Positions 6,709 to 12,898 of a DNA stretch of 64,000 nt are shown here, piece after piece; position 1 is the stretch's first letter, and each line of letters opens with the position of its first letter. The stretch comes from Alkalicella caledoniensis (GTDB taxonomy: Bacteria > Bacillota > Proteinivoracia > Proteinivoracales > Proteinivoracaceae): assembly GCF_014467015.1 (NCBI RefSeq), contig NZ_CP058559.1:3348001-3412000 (forward strand), given 5' to 3'. The notes under the pieces were generated by a model that was not told the origin of the DNA, searched no databases, and saw only the letters and a list, made by a program, of their open reading frames with translations. The translations under genes and the position numbers were made by a program.

Positions 6709-7908
6709 ATGGTAAAAAAAGCAGTAATATTCCGAGTTAACTACTACATAGGATTAGGTGCTGCAAGATGCCTAGGGAGAAATAATATATGGGTCGTTGC
6801 AGCCATTGAAAATAATAGCAAAGTAAAGTATGGATTACATACTAAATATATTGACGAAAGAATAGATATAATCAATGTTAAGGAAAATCCGCAGAAAGCT
6901 TTCGAACAGTTAGTTCAGTATGCCAAAAGGCAAGATGCTAAGCCACTATTGATACCCACTACAGATCCTTACGTGGAGTTTGTTGATAGATTTTTAGATG
7001 AACTAAGAGAGTATTATTTACTTCCTCCAATTAAAAAAGGCTTATATACAAAATTAATGGATAAAGACCTTTTAAGTGTTCTAGCTAACCAAAATAATGT
7101 TCAAATCCCCAAAGTAATAGAACCTAATTCCCAAGACAACATAACTGAAACATTAGATAAAGTTGAACGAGAGATAGGTTTTCCGTGCCTTATAAAACCA
7201 GTCAATTCACATAAGTTCGTTGCTGTATTCAAAGAAAAGATGTTTATAGCTAACAATAGAGATGACATAATAAACGGTCTAAGTAAAGCCAATGAAAAAA
7301 AAATGGAAGTTTTCATCCAGCAATTGATTAAAGGGTTCGACGACCAGATGTATACGTTTGATTGCTATATTGATAAGAATGGTGAAATGACCCACTGGGC
7401 TACCTTTCAAAAACAAAGACAGTTTCCTATAAACTTTGGGGCATCTACTTATATTAAGCAAAGGTATGTACCTGAATTAGTTGAAATAGGGTCTAGATTT
7501 TTATTAGATATCGACTACAGAGGGTTTGCAGAAATTGAGTTTAAAAAAAATGCAAGGGATGGCCGTTTTTATCTAATTGAAGTAAATGTAAGAACAACTA
7601 ATTTTCATATACTACTTGAGAAATTAGGTATAAACACGCCACTTATTATGTTTAAAGACCTTAACAATGAGAAAATTGGTACTGAATTTATTAGAGAGGA
7701 CACTGAAATTCATTTTTGGTCTTGCTATGAAGATATTTCTGCAATCCGTGGGTATCTAAGAAAAAAACAGCTTACTTTACCAAATGTAATTAAGTCATTG
7801 TTATATAAAAAAGTGGAAGCTATTTGGGCTTTCGATGATCCATTGCCTGGCATATATTTTGTTTTAGAAAAAATTAAGAAATTTATCTACAAAAGATTCA
7901 GTAGATAG
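6709..7908 (+). CDS. ATP-grasp carboxylate-amine ligase, possibly D-aspartate ligase-like
   Basis: A 399-residue ATP-grasp enzyme. The N-terminal pre-ATP-grasp domain (about 1-105) is followed by an ATP-binding lid with FPCLIKPVNSH near 160 and by the metal-binding IEVNVRTTNF near 290. These enzymes join a carboxylate to an amine through an acyl-phosphate. It lies 14 bp ahead of an Asp/Glu racemase in a two-gene operon, as with the D-aspartate ligase/racemase pairs that build D-Asp cross-bridges in lactic acid bacteria. That role is inferred from context only; another amino-acid or peptide ligase is equally possible. Confidence 0.75.
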   Translation: MVKKAVIFRVNYYIGLGAARCLGRNNIWVVAAIENNSKVKYGLHTKYIDERIDIINVKENPQKAFEQLVQYAKRQDAKPLLIPTTDPYVEFVDRFLDELREYYLLPPIKKGLYTKLMDKDLLSVLANQNNVQIPKVIEPNSQDNITETLDKVEREIGFPCLIKPVNSHKFVAVFKEKMFIANNRDDIINGLSKANEKKMEVFIQQLIKGFDDQMYTFDCYIDKNGEMTHWATFQKQRQFPINFGASTYIKQRYVPELVEIGSRFLLDIDYRGFAEIEFKKNARDGRFYLIEVNVRTTNFHILLEKLGINTPLIMFKDLNNEKIGTEFIREDTEIHFWSCYEDISAIRGYLRKKQLTLPNVIKSLLYKKVEAIWAFDDPLPGIYFVLEKIKKFIYKRFSR

Positions 7909-7922
7909 TAAGGGGGGAGTAT

Positions 7923-8636
7923 ATGAAAAAAAAAGAAAATTTAAATGAAATACTTGGTATTTTAGGTGGTATGGGACCATTGGCAACGGCTGAATTTTAC
8001 CAGAAGATAATAAACAAAACAGACGCAAGGATTGATCAGGATCATTTAGATATATTTATATCTAGTTTAGCCTCAACTCCCGATAGAACTCAGTATATAT
8101 TGAATAATGGACCTAGCCCCGTGGAAAAACTTGTGGAGTGTGCTAAAAAGCTTGAGCATATAGGAGCAACTTATATAGCCATGCCCTGCAATACTTCACA
8201 CTTCTTCTATAATGACGTGATAAAACATATCAGTATACCTTTTTTGAATATGATTGAAGAAACTGCAAAACATATAAAGAAAAATAGACCTACAAAAAAT
8301 ATTCTGCTTTTAGCCACAAAAGGTACCATTTTTGGGAATGTATATAAGGATACTTTTATAAAATATGATCTAAAGTTAAATGTGCCAGATTATATTAATC
8401 AAAATATCACATCTGAGATTATTGATACTGTAAAAAGGGGTAATCTCAAAAATCTAAGCAGATATTCTGATTTCTTTTTAGACCTAGAAAGGCAATATCT
8501 TATTATTTTAGGCTGTACAGAGCTTTCTGTGGCAAAAGATTTTTTATCCATACAAGGGGGGTTTATTGACCCATTGGAGGTTCTAGTGGAAAGTGTGCTA
8601 AAATTTGCTAACAAAAAAATTAAAGAAACTAAGTAA
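7923..8636 (+). CDS. aspartate/glutamate racemase family protein
   Basis: A 237-residue cofactor-independent racemase. It begins with the family signature LGGMGPLATAEFYQKI, and both catalytic cysteines are present: MPCNTSH near residue 80 and LGCTELS near residue 199. Length fits RacX/YgeA-type enzymes. It interconverts L- and D-aspartate or a related amino acid. The gene starts after AAGGGGGGAG, 14 bp behind the ATP-grasp ligase, and ends with a terminator, so it probably supplies a D-amino acid to that ligase. The exact substrate cannot be read from the sequence. Confidence 0.88.
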   Translation: MKKKENLNEILGILGGMGPLATAEFYQKIINKTDARIDQDHLDIFISSLASTPDRTQYILNNGPSPVEKLVECAKKLEHIGATYIAMPCNTSHFFYNDVIKHISIPFLNMIEETAKHIKKNRPTKNILLLATKGTIFGNVYKDTFIKYDLKLNVPDYINQNITSEIIDTVKRGNLKNLSRYSDFFLDLERQYLIILGCTELSVAKDFLSIQGGFIDPLEVLVESVLKFANKKIKETK

Positions 8637-8668
8637 AACATGGATGGCAAAGGATCCATGTTTTTTTT
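8637..8668 (+). terminator. terminator of ligase-racemase operon
   Basis: An ACATGGAT/ATCCATGT stem around an 8-nt loop is followed by eight T. Confidence 0.85.
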
Positions 8669-8773
8669 GTTAGGATTAAAATTATAGCAAAATTTCATAG
8701 TTTCATTATTATAATCACAAAAGAATTTTTTTGTTCATATACTAGATATAAACATTTTTAAAGGGGGAGAACT

Positions 8774-10237
8774 ATGAAAAAAATCCCAAAGTGTATGAGT
8801 ACGCAACATCCGGATAATGTAAATACTCCTTTTTTTTGTGAAAATGGAGAGCTCAAAGGAGAAGATGAAGTAAAAGAGGCATACTATGTATATTCCCATT
8901 TAGGGTGTGGTGAACAGATGTGGGATTGTGAAGGAAAGGAAATTGACAATTACGTCATAAAAAAGCTTTTAACTAGTTACCCTTATCTTTTTAAAAAGAA
9001 AACATTAGGTGAAGAACTGTTCTTAACACTAAGGGTTCCTAACCCACAACTGGAGAAGGCAGAGGGAAAAATTCTACTTGAGACCCTTGAAAGTATACCA
9101 AGGTCCTTTGATATTGCGAAGATTTTTTATAAAGAAGATAAACCCCCCATTTACGAGGTAATACTCCCTATGACCTCTAGTGTAGAGGAAATAAATAGTA
9201 TTTATTATTATTATAGAGACTTTGTCATTGGTAAAGAAAATTCAACTTTTGTTTTTGATGGTAAAAAGAATATTAAAGATTGGGTTGGAGAATTTAAGCC
9301 TAAGACAGTGAATGTAATACCCCTATTTGAAGATAAAGATTCCATGCTAGAGTGTGACAATATATTGGAAGAATACCTCAAGGACAAAAAAATAACTAAT
9401 CAAAGGGTTTTTTTAGCGAGATCTGATCCTGCAATGAACTATGGATTTATTGGTGCAGTTTTACTAAATAAGATTGCCCTATGGAAAATAGATAGATTAG
9501 CTAAAAAAATCGGTGTTGATTTATTTCCTATAATAGGGGTTGGGTCTGCACCCTTTAGGGGAGGGTTGACACCTTATAGTGTAAAGCGAGTTACTGAAGA
9601 ATTTCCAAGTGTCCATACTTTCACAATTCAATCGGCATTTAAGTATGATTACCCTTTAAAGGACGTAAAGGACGGGATAGATTTCATAAATGCATTTAAA
9701 ACTGGGAAGGCAATTGAAATCGACGAACAAAAATCAATGGATATTATTGAGAAATGTGCCGTAAGCTATGGCAGGGACGTCATAGACCTTGCTACAACTA
9801 TCAACTCGTTTTCTAAATTTATACCAAGAAGAAGGAAGAGGAAGCTTCATATTGGACTGTTTGGCTACTCAAGAAAAAAAGGCGAACTGAAGCTACCAAG
9901 GGCTATAACATTTTGTGCTTCCCTCTATTCATTGGGAGTGCCTCCTGAAGTGCTAGGTATTAGTGTATTATCTTTAGAGGACTTGAACTTTATTAACCAA
10001 TTCTACCCTAGTTTTAAAGAAGATCTAAGGGATGCAGTAAAATTTTTAAATCCCCAAAGTCCATATTTACCTAAAGGAGTACTGGAAAAACTAAGTATTA
10101 TTTTAGAAAACTATGACGTTGATGAAGAACACAAACTAATAACAGACCAGATAATAACTGATTTTTCAAAGGATAATACTGAAGGATTACAGGAATTAAT
10201 TCTACAGGCTGCAAAAATAAGAAGCTTTTTAGGATAA
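8774..10237 (+). CDS. ppcA: phosphoenolpyruvate carboxylase, archaeal type
   Basis: A 487-residue protein starting MKKIPKCMSTQHPDNVNTP, the characteristic opening of archaeal-type PEP carboxylase, about half the size of the classical 900-residue bacterial enzyme. It carboxylates PEP to oxaloacetate, refilling the TCA branch and feeding aspartate. A conserved GSAPFRGGLTP segment lies near residue 260. AAGGGGGAG precedes the ATG, and the gene is monocistronic with its own terminator. This form is mostly archaeal and occurs in only some Firmicutes, which suggests old lateral transfer. Base composition and codon use look like the neighbours. Confidence 0.92.
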   Translation: MKKIPKCMSTQHPDNVNTPFFCENGELKGEDEVKEAYYVYSHLGCGEQMWDCEGKEIDNYVIKKLLTSYPYLFKKKTLGEELFLTLRVPNPQLEKAEGKILLETLESIPRSFDIAKIFYKEDKPPIYEVILPMTSSVEEINSIYYYYRDFVIGKENSTFVFDGKKNIKDWVGEFKPKTVNVIPLFEDKDSMLECDNILEEYLKDKKITNQRVFLARSDPAMNYGFIGAVLLNKIALWKIDRLAKKIGVDLFPIIGVGSAPFRGGLTPYSVKRVTEEFPSVHTFTIQSAFKYDYPLKDVKDGIDFINAFKTGKAIEIDEQKSMDIIEKCAVSYGRDVIDLATTINSFSKFIPRRRKRKLHIGLFGYSRKKGELKLPRAITFCASLYSLGVPPEVLGISVLSLEDLNFINQFYPSFKEDLRDAVKFLNPQSPYLPKGVLEKLSIILENYDVDEEHKLITDQIITDFSKDNTEGLQELILQAAKIRSFLG

Positions 10238-10947: not shown

Positions 10948-11439
10948 TTATCCACTGCTGTTTGAGCTTGATCTGCGTCTACTTTCTAAGTAACAATGAT
11001 AAGTAATAATGCTTAGTGCTGCAGCTAAAATTGCAGGAAAAGTGCCAGTATAGTTTATTGAAACATCAGAGCCAATTACATCACCACCCAAACGACCACT
11101 TAAATATCCTGCCTCTGAAGTTAAATTAACACTAAAACCTATAAATTGCCCACCGACCCTACCAGTAATATGCCTTTCTCCAGAGATTGATATATCATCT
11201 CCTATAACTTCACCACCAATTCTACCAGATAAAGAGTTTGAAGAATAGGCAAGGTCTACATCGTTTCCTATAATCATTCCACCTATCCTACCCTTAAGGG
11301 TACTGTCTGTATACTTAAGTCTAACACTCTTGCCCTGGATAGCTCCACCTATTCTTCCTTCAATGGTAGTTGAACTGATGCTACATTCAATACTGTAACC
11401 CATAATCTGACCGCCAACCCTACCCGATAAATTTCCCAT
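10948..11439 (-). CDS. six-repeat GR(I/V/L)GG protein, predicted beta-solenoid with C-terminal membrane segment
   Basis: I do not recognise this family. From the ATG at 11439 (GGAGGG six bases upstream; a start at 11493 without such a site is less likely) it encodes 163 residues. The motif GR(I/V/L)GG occurs six times, at residues 6, 28, 50, 72, 93 and 115, so the repeat is 22 residues (once 21). The consensus is roughly L-x-GRIGG-x-I-x-G-x-D-V-x-L plus a variable turn. Such hydrophobic alternation with glycine corners fits coils of a parallel beta-helix. After the repeats comes a hydrophobic stretch (134-151), then RRR and a Ser-rich tail. It lies 67 bp downstream of the MocR regulator on the same strand. 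Confidence 0.8.
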   Translation of the reverse strand: MGNLSGRVGGQIMGYSIECSISSTTIEGRIGGAIQGKSVRLKYTDSTLKGRIGGMIIGNDVDLAYSSNSLSGRIGGEVIGDDISISGERHITGRVGGQFIGFSVNLTSEAGYLSGRLGGDVIGSDVSINYTGTFPAILAAALSIITYHCYLESRRRSSSNSSG

Positions 11440-11506
11440 GTAGATCCCTCCGTTATTATTATATAAGTACATATTTAAGATATTCTGCAGCACATTAAAA
11501 ATTCCT

Positions 11507-12898
11507 CTATTTCAATGTTCCTTTGATGATGCTAGCTAATATTTCTATTCCTGCTTCGATATCTTTTTCAGCCATGGTGGTGAAACTTAATCTAAAAAAG
11601 TTTTGTTTCCTATCAATAAAAAAATCATCACCGGGGAGGATTCCAACACCATGTTGTTTGGCCAAATTTGCTATATCATCAGCGCAAATATGGGGAGGAA
11701 GCTGTATCCATACACACAAACCACCAGTTGGTTTTGTAAACATTACAGATGAAGGTAATCTTTTCTCAAGGGCAGATATTGTGGTTAAACATCTGGATTG
11801 ATAAACCTTTTTTACTTTATTAACATGCTCTTGCCACAGATCTTTTCTTAGATAAAGATCAAAGGCCCTTTGTAAAAAGCCAGAAGTGGAGATGTCTGAG
11901 AACTGTTTAGCCTCAATTAAAGGTGTGTTAAAGATTGGTGGAGCTACTAAAAGGGCTAGCCTTAACCCGGGCATAAAAACCTTTGAAAAAGACTTTATAT
12001 AGATTACTATATTTTCAGTATCTAAAGCTTTAAGGGGAGGGATTTTGTTAATTGAATAGTTTAAATCTGAAAAATGATCGTCTTCAACTATAAGTGTATT
12101 GTACTTAGAAGCAAGGTCTAATAGCTTTCTTCGATGGGCTAAATCATACTGATAGCCCGTTGGACTTTGGAAATCAGGCATTACATATATAAACTTTGGA
12201 TTAAACTTTTTCAACCTGTCCTCAAGGATTTGCAAATCCATGCCTTTATTGCGAACGGGGATACCAACCGTTTTAGCACCACGGGAAGAGAAGGTAGCCA
12301 TTGCACCAGGATAACAGGGCTCTTCAGTAAAAACAAAATCACCTTCAGATAAAAGGGTTTTAGCAATTATATCTAAACCTTGCTGCCCACCTGAAATTAT
12401 ATGAACATATTGATGGGGTACATTGATTTTGTACCCCTTTAATAACTCACGAAGACTTTGCCTGAGGGGTAAATATCCCCCTGCTTCTTGATAATTAAAA
12501 GCAAAACCCCCATCTCTCTCTAAAACGTCATTTAAAAGGCCCTTAAAGGCTTTAACTGGAAAGAAGGTGGGTGAAGGTGAGGAAGTGATGAAATCATACT
12601 TTACATCACCAAATACGGTGCTCTCAGAGTATCCTTCATTGGTATCTATAAGGTTATTATCTGCAATTACAAAAGTTCCGCTACCATGGATTGTATAGGC
12701 GTAACCATCTTGTTCTAAGGTTTTGTAGCAATTAACAATTGTTACATTATTTACATTTAAAAAGGTAGACAATTTCCTAATGGAAGGCAGCTTATAATGA
12801 TGGGGTAGGGAACCTTTTACAATTAAACTTTTAATATGATCTGTTAACTGTTTATACTTAGATTCGCTGTTTGTAAATTGCACATGAAATACATTCAT
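11507..12898 (-). CDS. MocR/PdxR-type GntR regulator with aminotransferase domain
   Basis: A 463-residue fusion. An N-terminal GntR winged helix (about 10-78, with KLPSIRKLSTFLNVNNVTIVNCYKTLEQDG and HGSGTFV) is joined to a fold-type I PLP aminotransferase domain (about 110-460). The PLP lysine is in IKSFSKVFMPGLRL near residue 304; other PLP contacts are SGGQQGLD and the DDHFSDL region. MocR proteins use the PLP domain as a ligand sensor, often for vitamin B6 or GABA metabolism, but no such gene is adjacent. GGGAGTG precedes the ATG. The repeat protein follows on the same strand and may be its target or a co-transcribed partner. Confidence 0.9.
   Translation of the reverse strand: MNVFHVQFTNSESKYKQLTDHIKSLIVKGSLPHHYKLPSIRKLSTFLNVNNVTIVNCYKTLEQDGYAYTIHGSGTFVIADNNLIDTNEGYSESTVFGDVKYDFITSSPSPTFFPVKAFKGLLNDVLERDGGFAFNYQEAGGYLPLRQSLRELLKGYKINVPHQYVHIISGGQQGLDIIAKTLLSEGDFVFTEEPCYPGAMATFSSRGAKTVGIPVRNKGMDLQILEDRLKKFNPKFIYVMPDFQSPTGYQYDLAHRRKLLDLASKYNTLIVEDDHFSDLNYSINKIPPLKALDTENIVIYIKSFSKVFMPGLRLALLVAPPIFNTPLIEAKQFSDISTSGFLQRAFDLYLRKDLWQEHVNKVKKVYQSRCLTTISALEKRLPSSVMFTKPTGGLCVWIQLPPHICADDIANLAKQHGVGILPGDDFFIDRKQNFFRLSFTTMAEKDIEAGIEILASIIKGTLK

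Follow-up and report, generated by a model that had tools for sequence, protein, structure and literature searches.

A minus-strand gene at 10948..11439 of a 64,000-nucleotide stretch of the Alkalicella caledoniensis genome (contig NZ_CP058559.1; this whole stretch is hereafter called the window) encodes a protein made of six glycine-rich repeats and raises two questions: which fold do these repeats build, and what might such a protein do? The gene is complete and codes for 163 amino acids (P0001). Minus is the sole open strand, a point left unstated in the preliminary description of the locus. The ATG is located at 11439 and the stop codon at 10948-10950, and a putative ribosome-binding site, GGAGGG, can be read 6 nt upstream of the ATG (11446..11451, minus strand). 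A longer open reading frame beginning with GTG was considered mechanical because most homologues start at the same methionine as the six-repeat protein, usually within M-G-x-(I/V/L). The gene is intact in relatives at 29-58% identity.

The motif GR(I/V/L)GG recurs at residues 6, 28, 50, 72, 93 and 115, exactly the positions given in the preliminary description. When the 163-residue protein was shuffled 20,000 times with its composition preserved, the motif occurred at most twice per shuffle; these shuffles, together with conservation in the family, rule out a chance or low-complexity repeat. The 20-residue cores of the repeats share 30-60% identity at the protein level (mean 42%) and 40-58% at the DNA level (mean 50%), so their DNA has diverged as had been claimed, and the six-unit array is common to the 41-row family alignment, in agreement with the proposal that it is old and kept by selection. 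Pooling the units of the 41 members gave the consensus phi-x-G-R-phi-G-G-x-phi-x-G-x-[D/S]-phi-x-phi-x-phi, followed by a short variable loop. Arginine is found at all six motif sites in 39 of the 41 members, and D, N, S, T or E at all six Arg-partner sites in 39 of the 41. Two aromatic positions distinguish individual units: Phe stands at residue 102 of unit 5 in 35/41 members, and either Tyr or Phe at residue 15 of unit 1 in 32/40. They occupy the equivalent local position in their respective units and are conserved unit-specifically, so the units are not interchangeable. The best repeat match between homologues falls at the same position in 39% of cases against 17% expected, while repeats within one protein are hardly more alike than repeats at different positions in different proteins. 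These two observations indicate that the six-unit array predates the radiation of the family.

The six-repeat protein belongs to a real, broad and unnamed family that is absent from Pfam and NCBIfam. Searches of Pfam, NCBIfam and PDB sequences returned no significant match to this family, as anticipated by the statement that no known family could be recognised. A search of the genomes of 61 relatives gave some match in 12, strong in eight of them. Within the phylum, the family was detected in 44 of the 398 sampled genomes, spread over the phylum with E-values down to 1e-75, some of these genomes containing only remnants; a 40-row profile returned the same count (44/398), and a scan of genome contigs with the single protein as query gave no match. 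This unnamed gene, or a remnant of it, is present in roughly one of every nine genomes sampled from the phylum. Homologues are also carried by plasmids of four Deinococcus species, where they are annotated 'hypothetical protein'. In full-length members (about 150-175 amino acids), the six units are followed by a hydrophobic segment, which is conserved, and by a short polar tail in which Ser, Gly, His or Asn abound. In one genome with two tandem gene copies (G348, L087:7714-8720), both keep six repeats and the second has a complete C-terminal segment. Elsewhere the gene is damaged: the G008 member (L017, around 8034-8513) presents a frameshift within the first repeat, which could reflect either a pseudogene or a faulty assembly, the G044 copy is interrupted by stops, and G157, G182, G207 and G231 carry fragments. 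Such broken or partial copies indicate that the gene is dispensable in places and patchily kept. Several other assignments were rejected. A DNA methyltransferase match (phrog_1277, E 2.6e-4) was partial, covered a glycine-rich stretch and had no Pfam or NCBIfam support, and a search for the phrog_1277 family in 11 Bacillota genomes found nothing. DUF6629 and other Pfam matches (E 0.06-0.5) concerned one member each and fell below the cut-off, PADLOC gave a single stray defence-system match (E 0.067), and a phage origin was discarded as no relative was encoded in the phage records or viral contigs searched.

The fold of the repeats was addressed with two AlphaFold2 models, which differ. The first, computed from the single sequence, was solenoid-like with about three short strands per repeat and an unresolved C-terminus (pLDDT 71.6, pTM 0.70). 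Its Foldseek neighbours were CsgA (curli), FapC, LpxA-type enzymes and bactofilin, all weak (E >= 0.3). Both the strand pattern and these neighbours would suit the beta-solenoid predicted in the preliminary description. In such a parallel rod, each repeat would form one 22-residue coil and Arg/Asp ladders would run along the rod, with a C-terminal membrane anchor and a structural role similar to that of bactofilin or an adhesin stalk. The second model was based on alignment A4, made of eight sequences drawn from the window and from other loci. It showed twelve strands, two per repeat, followed by a helix at residues 135-158, with a higher pLDDT of 77.9 and a pTM of 0.70. The predicted hairpins, all on the minus strand, comprise residues 2-21 (11377..11436; strands 2-8 and 15-21, with the conserved inward aromatic at residue 15), 25-43 (11311..11367), 47-66 (11242..11301), 69-86 (11182..11235), 90-109 (11113..11172; residue 102, mostly Phe) and 112-131 (11047..11106). 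Residues 15 and 102 both face inward in this hairpin model. The structure prediction proposed as a check on residues 1-163 thus yielded a solenoid-like shape from the single sequence only and a hairpin meander with the alignment.

The top PDB matches of the alignment-based model were antiparallel up-and-down lipid-binding barrels of the CRBP2/FABP type, with weak scores (E 0.07-0.24, probability up to 0.85, TM about 0.4). They could be taken to mean that the protein is a fatty-acid- or retinoid-binding-like barrel holding a hydrophobic ligand, the helix serving as a lid and not as a permanent plug. This seems quite improbable to us: even the best of these matches is weak (E about 0.07), the matched barrels are 10-stranded and most probably reflect a shared meander topology, and a ligand would have to compete with the conserved helix. 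No Foldseek match reached E <= 0.001 for either model, no Tubby-like entry appeared among the 50 matches listed, and nothing significant was found against viral models.

Because neither Foldseek search was significant, the two topologies were tested on the sequences themselves. The hairpin register pairs residue 51 with 60 (Arg/Asp) and 49 with 62, while the solenoid register stacks residue i on i+22. Opposite-charge coupling was pronounced within hairpins at outward positions (z -5.3). It was weaker towards the next hairpin, with z -2.0 overall and -3.2 for the closest pairs, the latter value being also reached by one non-contact control class (B strand to the A strand of the previous repeat). 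Equal positions of successive repeats displayed no charge complementarity (z 0.3), which argues against stacked coils. The top mutual-information offsets included hairpin pairs. Equal positions in consecutive repeats likewise had elevated mutual information, as a solenoid predicts, but shared ancestry of the repeats could be an alternative cause. Covariation expected from barrel closure, between hairpins 6 and 1, was not significant in either charge coupling or mutual information. The copy number, fixed at six in both Bacillota and Deinococcus, is as expected of a closed barrel; solenoids usually vary in their number of repeats. The absence of a signal peptide also speaks against the solenoid, as does the comparison with bactofilin (PF04519). 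Bactofilin is likewise a small, repetitive beta protein of Bacillota with a hydrophobic core, but forms a parallel beta-helix of about 98 residues devoid of GRxGG; there is no profile similarity (hhalign probability 0.4% over 10 columns), and the bactofilin of this genome is encoded by a separate gene, so that identity with bactofilin was rejected. The higher-pLDDT model is made of six hairpins and a C-terminal helix, and it is the hairpin pairs that the charge coupling follows. The beta-solenoid is therefore probably a misreading, and we regard it as a doubtful alternative. A hairpin-barrel fold appears reasonably probable for the six-repeat protein. The case also illustrates how assigning a fold by eye, or on the basis of one sequence, may confuse a hairpin barrel with a solenoid.

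The end of the protein bears on how such a barrel would be filled. The hydrophobic C-terminal segment, the RRR and the Ser tail of the preliminary description are all present, and the hydrophobic segment is conserved in the family, with a pattern of about P-P-(I/L)-(L/V)-A-A-L...T-Y-Y-Y-Y. The predicted helix (residues 135-158) corresponds to 10966..11037 on the minus strand and could be a barrel plug or a membrane segment; the end of the Ser-rich polar tail (residues 159-163) and the stop codon follow at 10948..10965. A membrane attachment had been suggested from these features. In a tail-anchored protein, the six-hairpin domain would be cytosolic, residues at about 136-152 would cross the membrane and the polar tail would lie outside. 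The conserved stretch of about 17 hydrophobic residues, ending in aromatics and followed by a polar, weakly basic tail, is in line with this arrangement, and the C-terminal helix of phospholipid scramblases presents the same ambiguity between a buried and a membrane position. Yet the mean Kyte-Doolittle hydropathy of the segment over 17 residues, 1.23 (range 0.21-1.76), is low for a transmembrane helix, and the segment is as long as a barrel of seven-residue strands is high. We therefore consider tail anchoring rather unlikely. The moderate hydrophobicity fits a buried helix more than a transmembrane one, and the helix may be buried in the barrel.

A barrel of this kind invites comparison with known folds. 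Sixfold beta-flowers (Pfam PF21784, PF21785 and PF21786, clan CL0395; Durairaj et al. 2023, PMC10584680) resemble the six-repeat protein as predicted here, judging from the text of that paper, in being bacterial and in having hairpin petals arranged sixfold, 12 short strands, inward aromatics at strand edges and short loops. The 12 short antiparallel strands forming six hairpins are predicted here by AlphaFold2 (pTM 0.70), with charge coupling supporting the antiparallel pairing, and a C-terminal hydrophobic helix, which many beta-flowers enclose, is both predicted in the model (135-158) and conserved in the family. The inward aromatics 15 and 102 and the Tyr-rich end of the helix also recall the network of aromatic residues that PMC10584680 describes in beta-flowers and Tubby. 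The resemblance has its limits. The semiconserved tip motif [DNEQ]xxG of beta-flowers occurs in 4/6 repeats of this protein and in 64/246 (26%) of those of the family, the Gly itself being invariant. GRxGG in every petal is a feature of the six-repeat family that is not described for beta-flowers (PMC10584680), and the six-repeat protein, unlike beta-flowers, lacks a lipoprotein signal. The three Pfam beta-flower models gave no match to 40 members even at E <= 10, and no beta-flower match exceeded the curated cut-off in the genomes searched.

The Tubby C-terminal, phospholipid scramblase and LOR (YxjI) domains are 12-stranded barrels closed around a C-terminal hydrophobic helix, as predicted here, but they lack a sixfold sequence repeat, unlike the six-repeat family. 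Compared to beta-flowers, their strands and loops are longer and the first strand is circularly permuted (PMC10584680). A 2025 study (PMC12095923) gives the common core of clan CL0395 as 12 strands that form a barrel around a central helix. The Tubby-like clan members PF01167, PF03803 and PF04525 were not matched in the Pfam scan, and hhalign of the family against two aligned LOR proteins gave a probability of 0.1%. A LOR/YxjI-type protein of 162 amino acids is encoded in the same genome (PF04525, E 4e-14; L113:1492-1980; G000:C1:2538310-2538753, plus strand), LOR proteins being found in only two of the 61 genomes searched. It has the length and layout of the six-repeat protein, and BLASTP between the two was negative. 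MORN and other glycine-rich hairpin repeats are also glycine-rich and, with about 22-23 residues, resemble the units of the six-repeat family. PMC10584680 remarks that certain beta-flowers carry MORN-variant annotations. The six-repeat family differs from MORN by its fixed six copies and its hydrophobic helix, and none of its members matched MORN in Pfam. The nearest kind for the six-repeat protein is the sixfold beta-flower or Tubby-like barrel, although it is not filed as a member; it probably works like the CL0395 superfamily and may belong to it.

On this basis, the explanation that we favour, with about even chances of being correct as a whole, is a cytosolic and autonomous six-hairpin barrel with a C-terminal helix plug. 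Six 22-residue beta-hairpins would curve round into a closed, shallow barrel of 12 antiparallel strands with approximate sixfold symmetry. Each hairpin would carry G-R-phi-G-G on its first strand, its Arg being paired across the strands with an Asp (or Ser), and the Arg/Asp pairs would make up a belt of salt bridges around the outer surface of the barrel. Judging from the register, the glycines would leave room inside for a helix. The conserved C-terminal hydrophobic helix would most likely plug the barrel, as in Tubby, scramblase, LOR and sixfold beta-flowers, and the product of this single gene would remain cytosolic and act alone. By analogy, it might bind membranes peripherally, or else lipids or other ligands, with a helix that leaves or stays in the barrel, a role that we find conceivable but not probable; an anionic lipid or another ligand could be bound via the Arg belt or upon helix release, a guess drawn from Tubby-like proteins. 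Should the fold prove right, one more family would join the beta-flower/Tubby-like superfamily, in which no function is known for the bacterial members. The six petals are still 30-60% identical, so that the link proposed between simple hairpin repeats and Tubby/scramblase domains becomes testable, and such a small, natural, near-sixfold-symmetric barrel would suit structure determination and design. We propose more tentatively, at somewhat less than even chances, that this is a new widespread prokaryotic family whose closed, helix-plugged Tubby-like barrel shows its origin from six tandem hairpin copies, with six near-invariant arginines as a belt. If true, it would provide evidence that the fold arose by hairpin multiplication, and the protein would found a new Pfam family within clan CL0395.

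The distribution of the family in Bacillota suggested another role, that of a spore-associated protein of the coat, the forespore or germination. The sporulation gene spoIVA is present in 42/44 family-positive genomes compared to 294/354 others (one-sided Fisher test without control for phylogeny, p = 0.019), but 83% of the family-negative genomes are also those of spore-formers. Moreover, matches to sigma-E, F, G or K promoters upstream of the gene were not enriched over controls, no sporulation-gene neighbours were found around the loci, and homologues are present in Deinococcus, which does not sporulate. A spore function is thus very unlikely in our view.

The genomic context was then considered. 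A MocR-type GntR/aminotransferase regulator gene (11507-12898, same strand) lies upstream, 67 nt from the ATG of the six-repeat gene, and the two are probably co-transcribed here. The MocR neighbour noted in the preliminary description does adjoin the gene in this genome, but this adjacency is not conserved across the 48 loci compared: MocR/aminotransferase proteins were found in 7 of them and next to the gene only here, so they were rejected as a conserved operon partner. Clustering of the open reading frames around the 48 loci revealed no neighbour shared beyond related lineages, only lineage-specific synteny, and hence no conserved neighbour that would back a particular function. The tRNA-Pro and tRNA-Thr genes downstream of the six-repeat gene are not conserved with it. 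On two Deinococcus plasmids (L056 and L057, around 7400-9800), the gene begins inside a cyclase-family gene, whose end it overlaps by 4 bases, and is located beside kynU in a kynurenine-pathway cluster. A plasmid of Deinococcus taeanensis (L058:7602-8468) encodes the only fusion seen, a 289-residue protein with an N-terminal DUF7662 (E 3e-16) joined to the family domain, and this fusion may be a pointer to function. Elsewhere in the window, on the plus strand, the region 6709-8636 comprises, as judged from sequence, a gene for an ATP-grasp-like enzyme and, 14 nt further on, an aspartate/glutamate-racemase-like gene, which may together form an amino-acid ligase pair, and 8774-10237 encodes a 487-residue protein starting MKKIPKCMSTQHPDN, which by eye resembles an archaeal-type PEP carboxylase.
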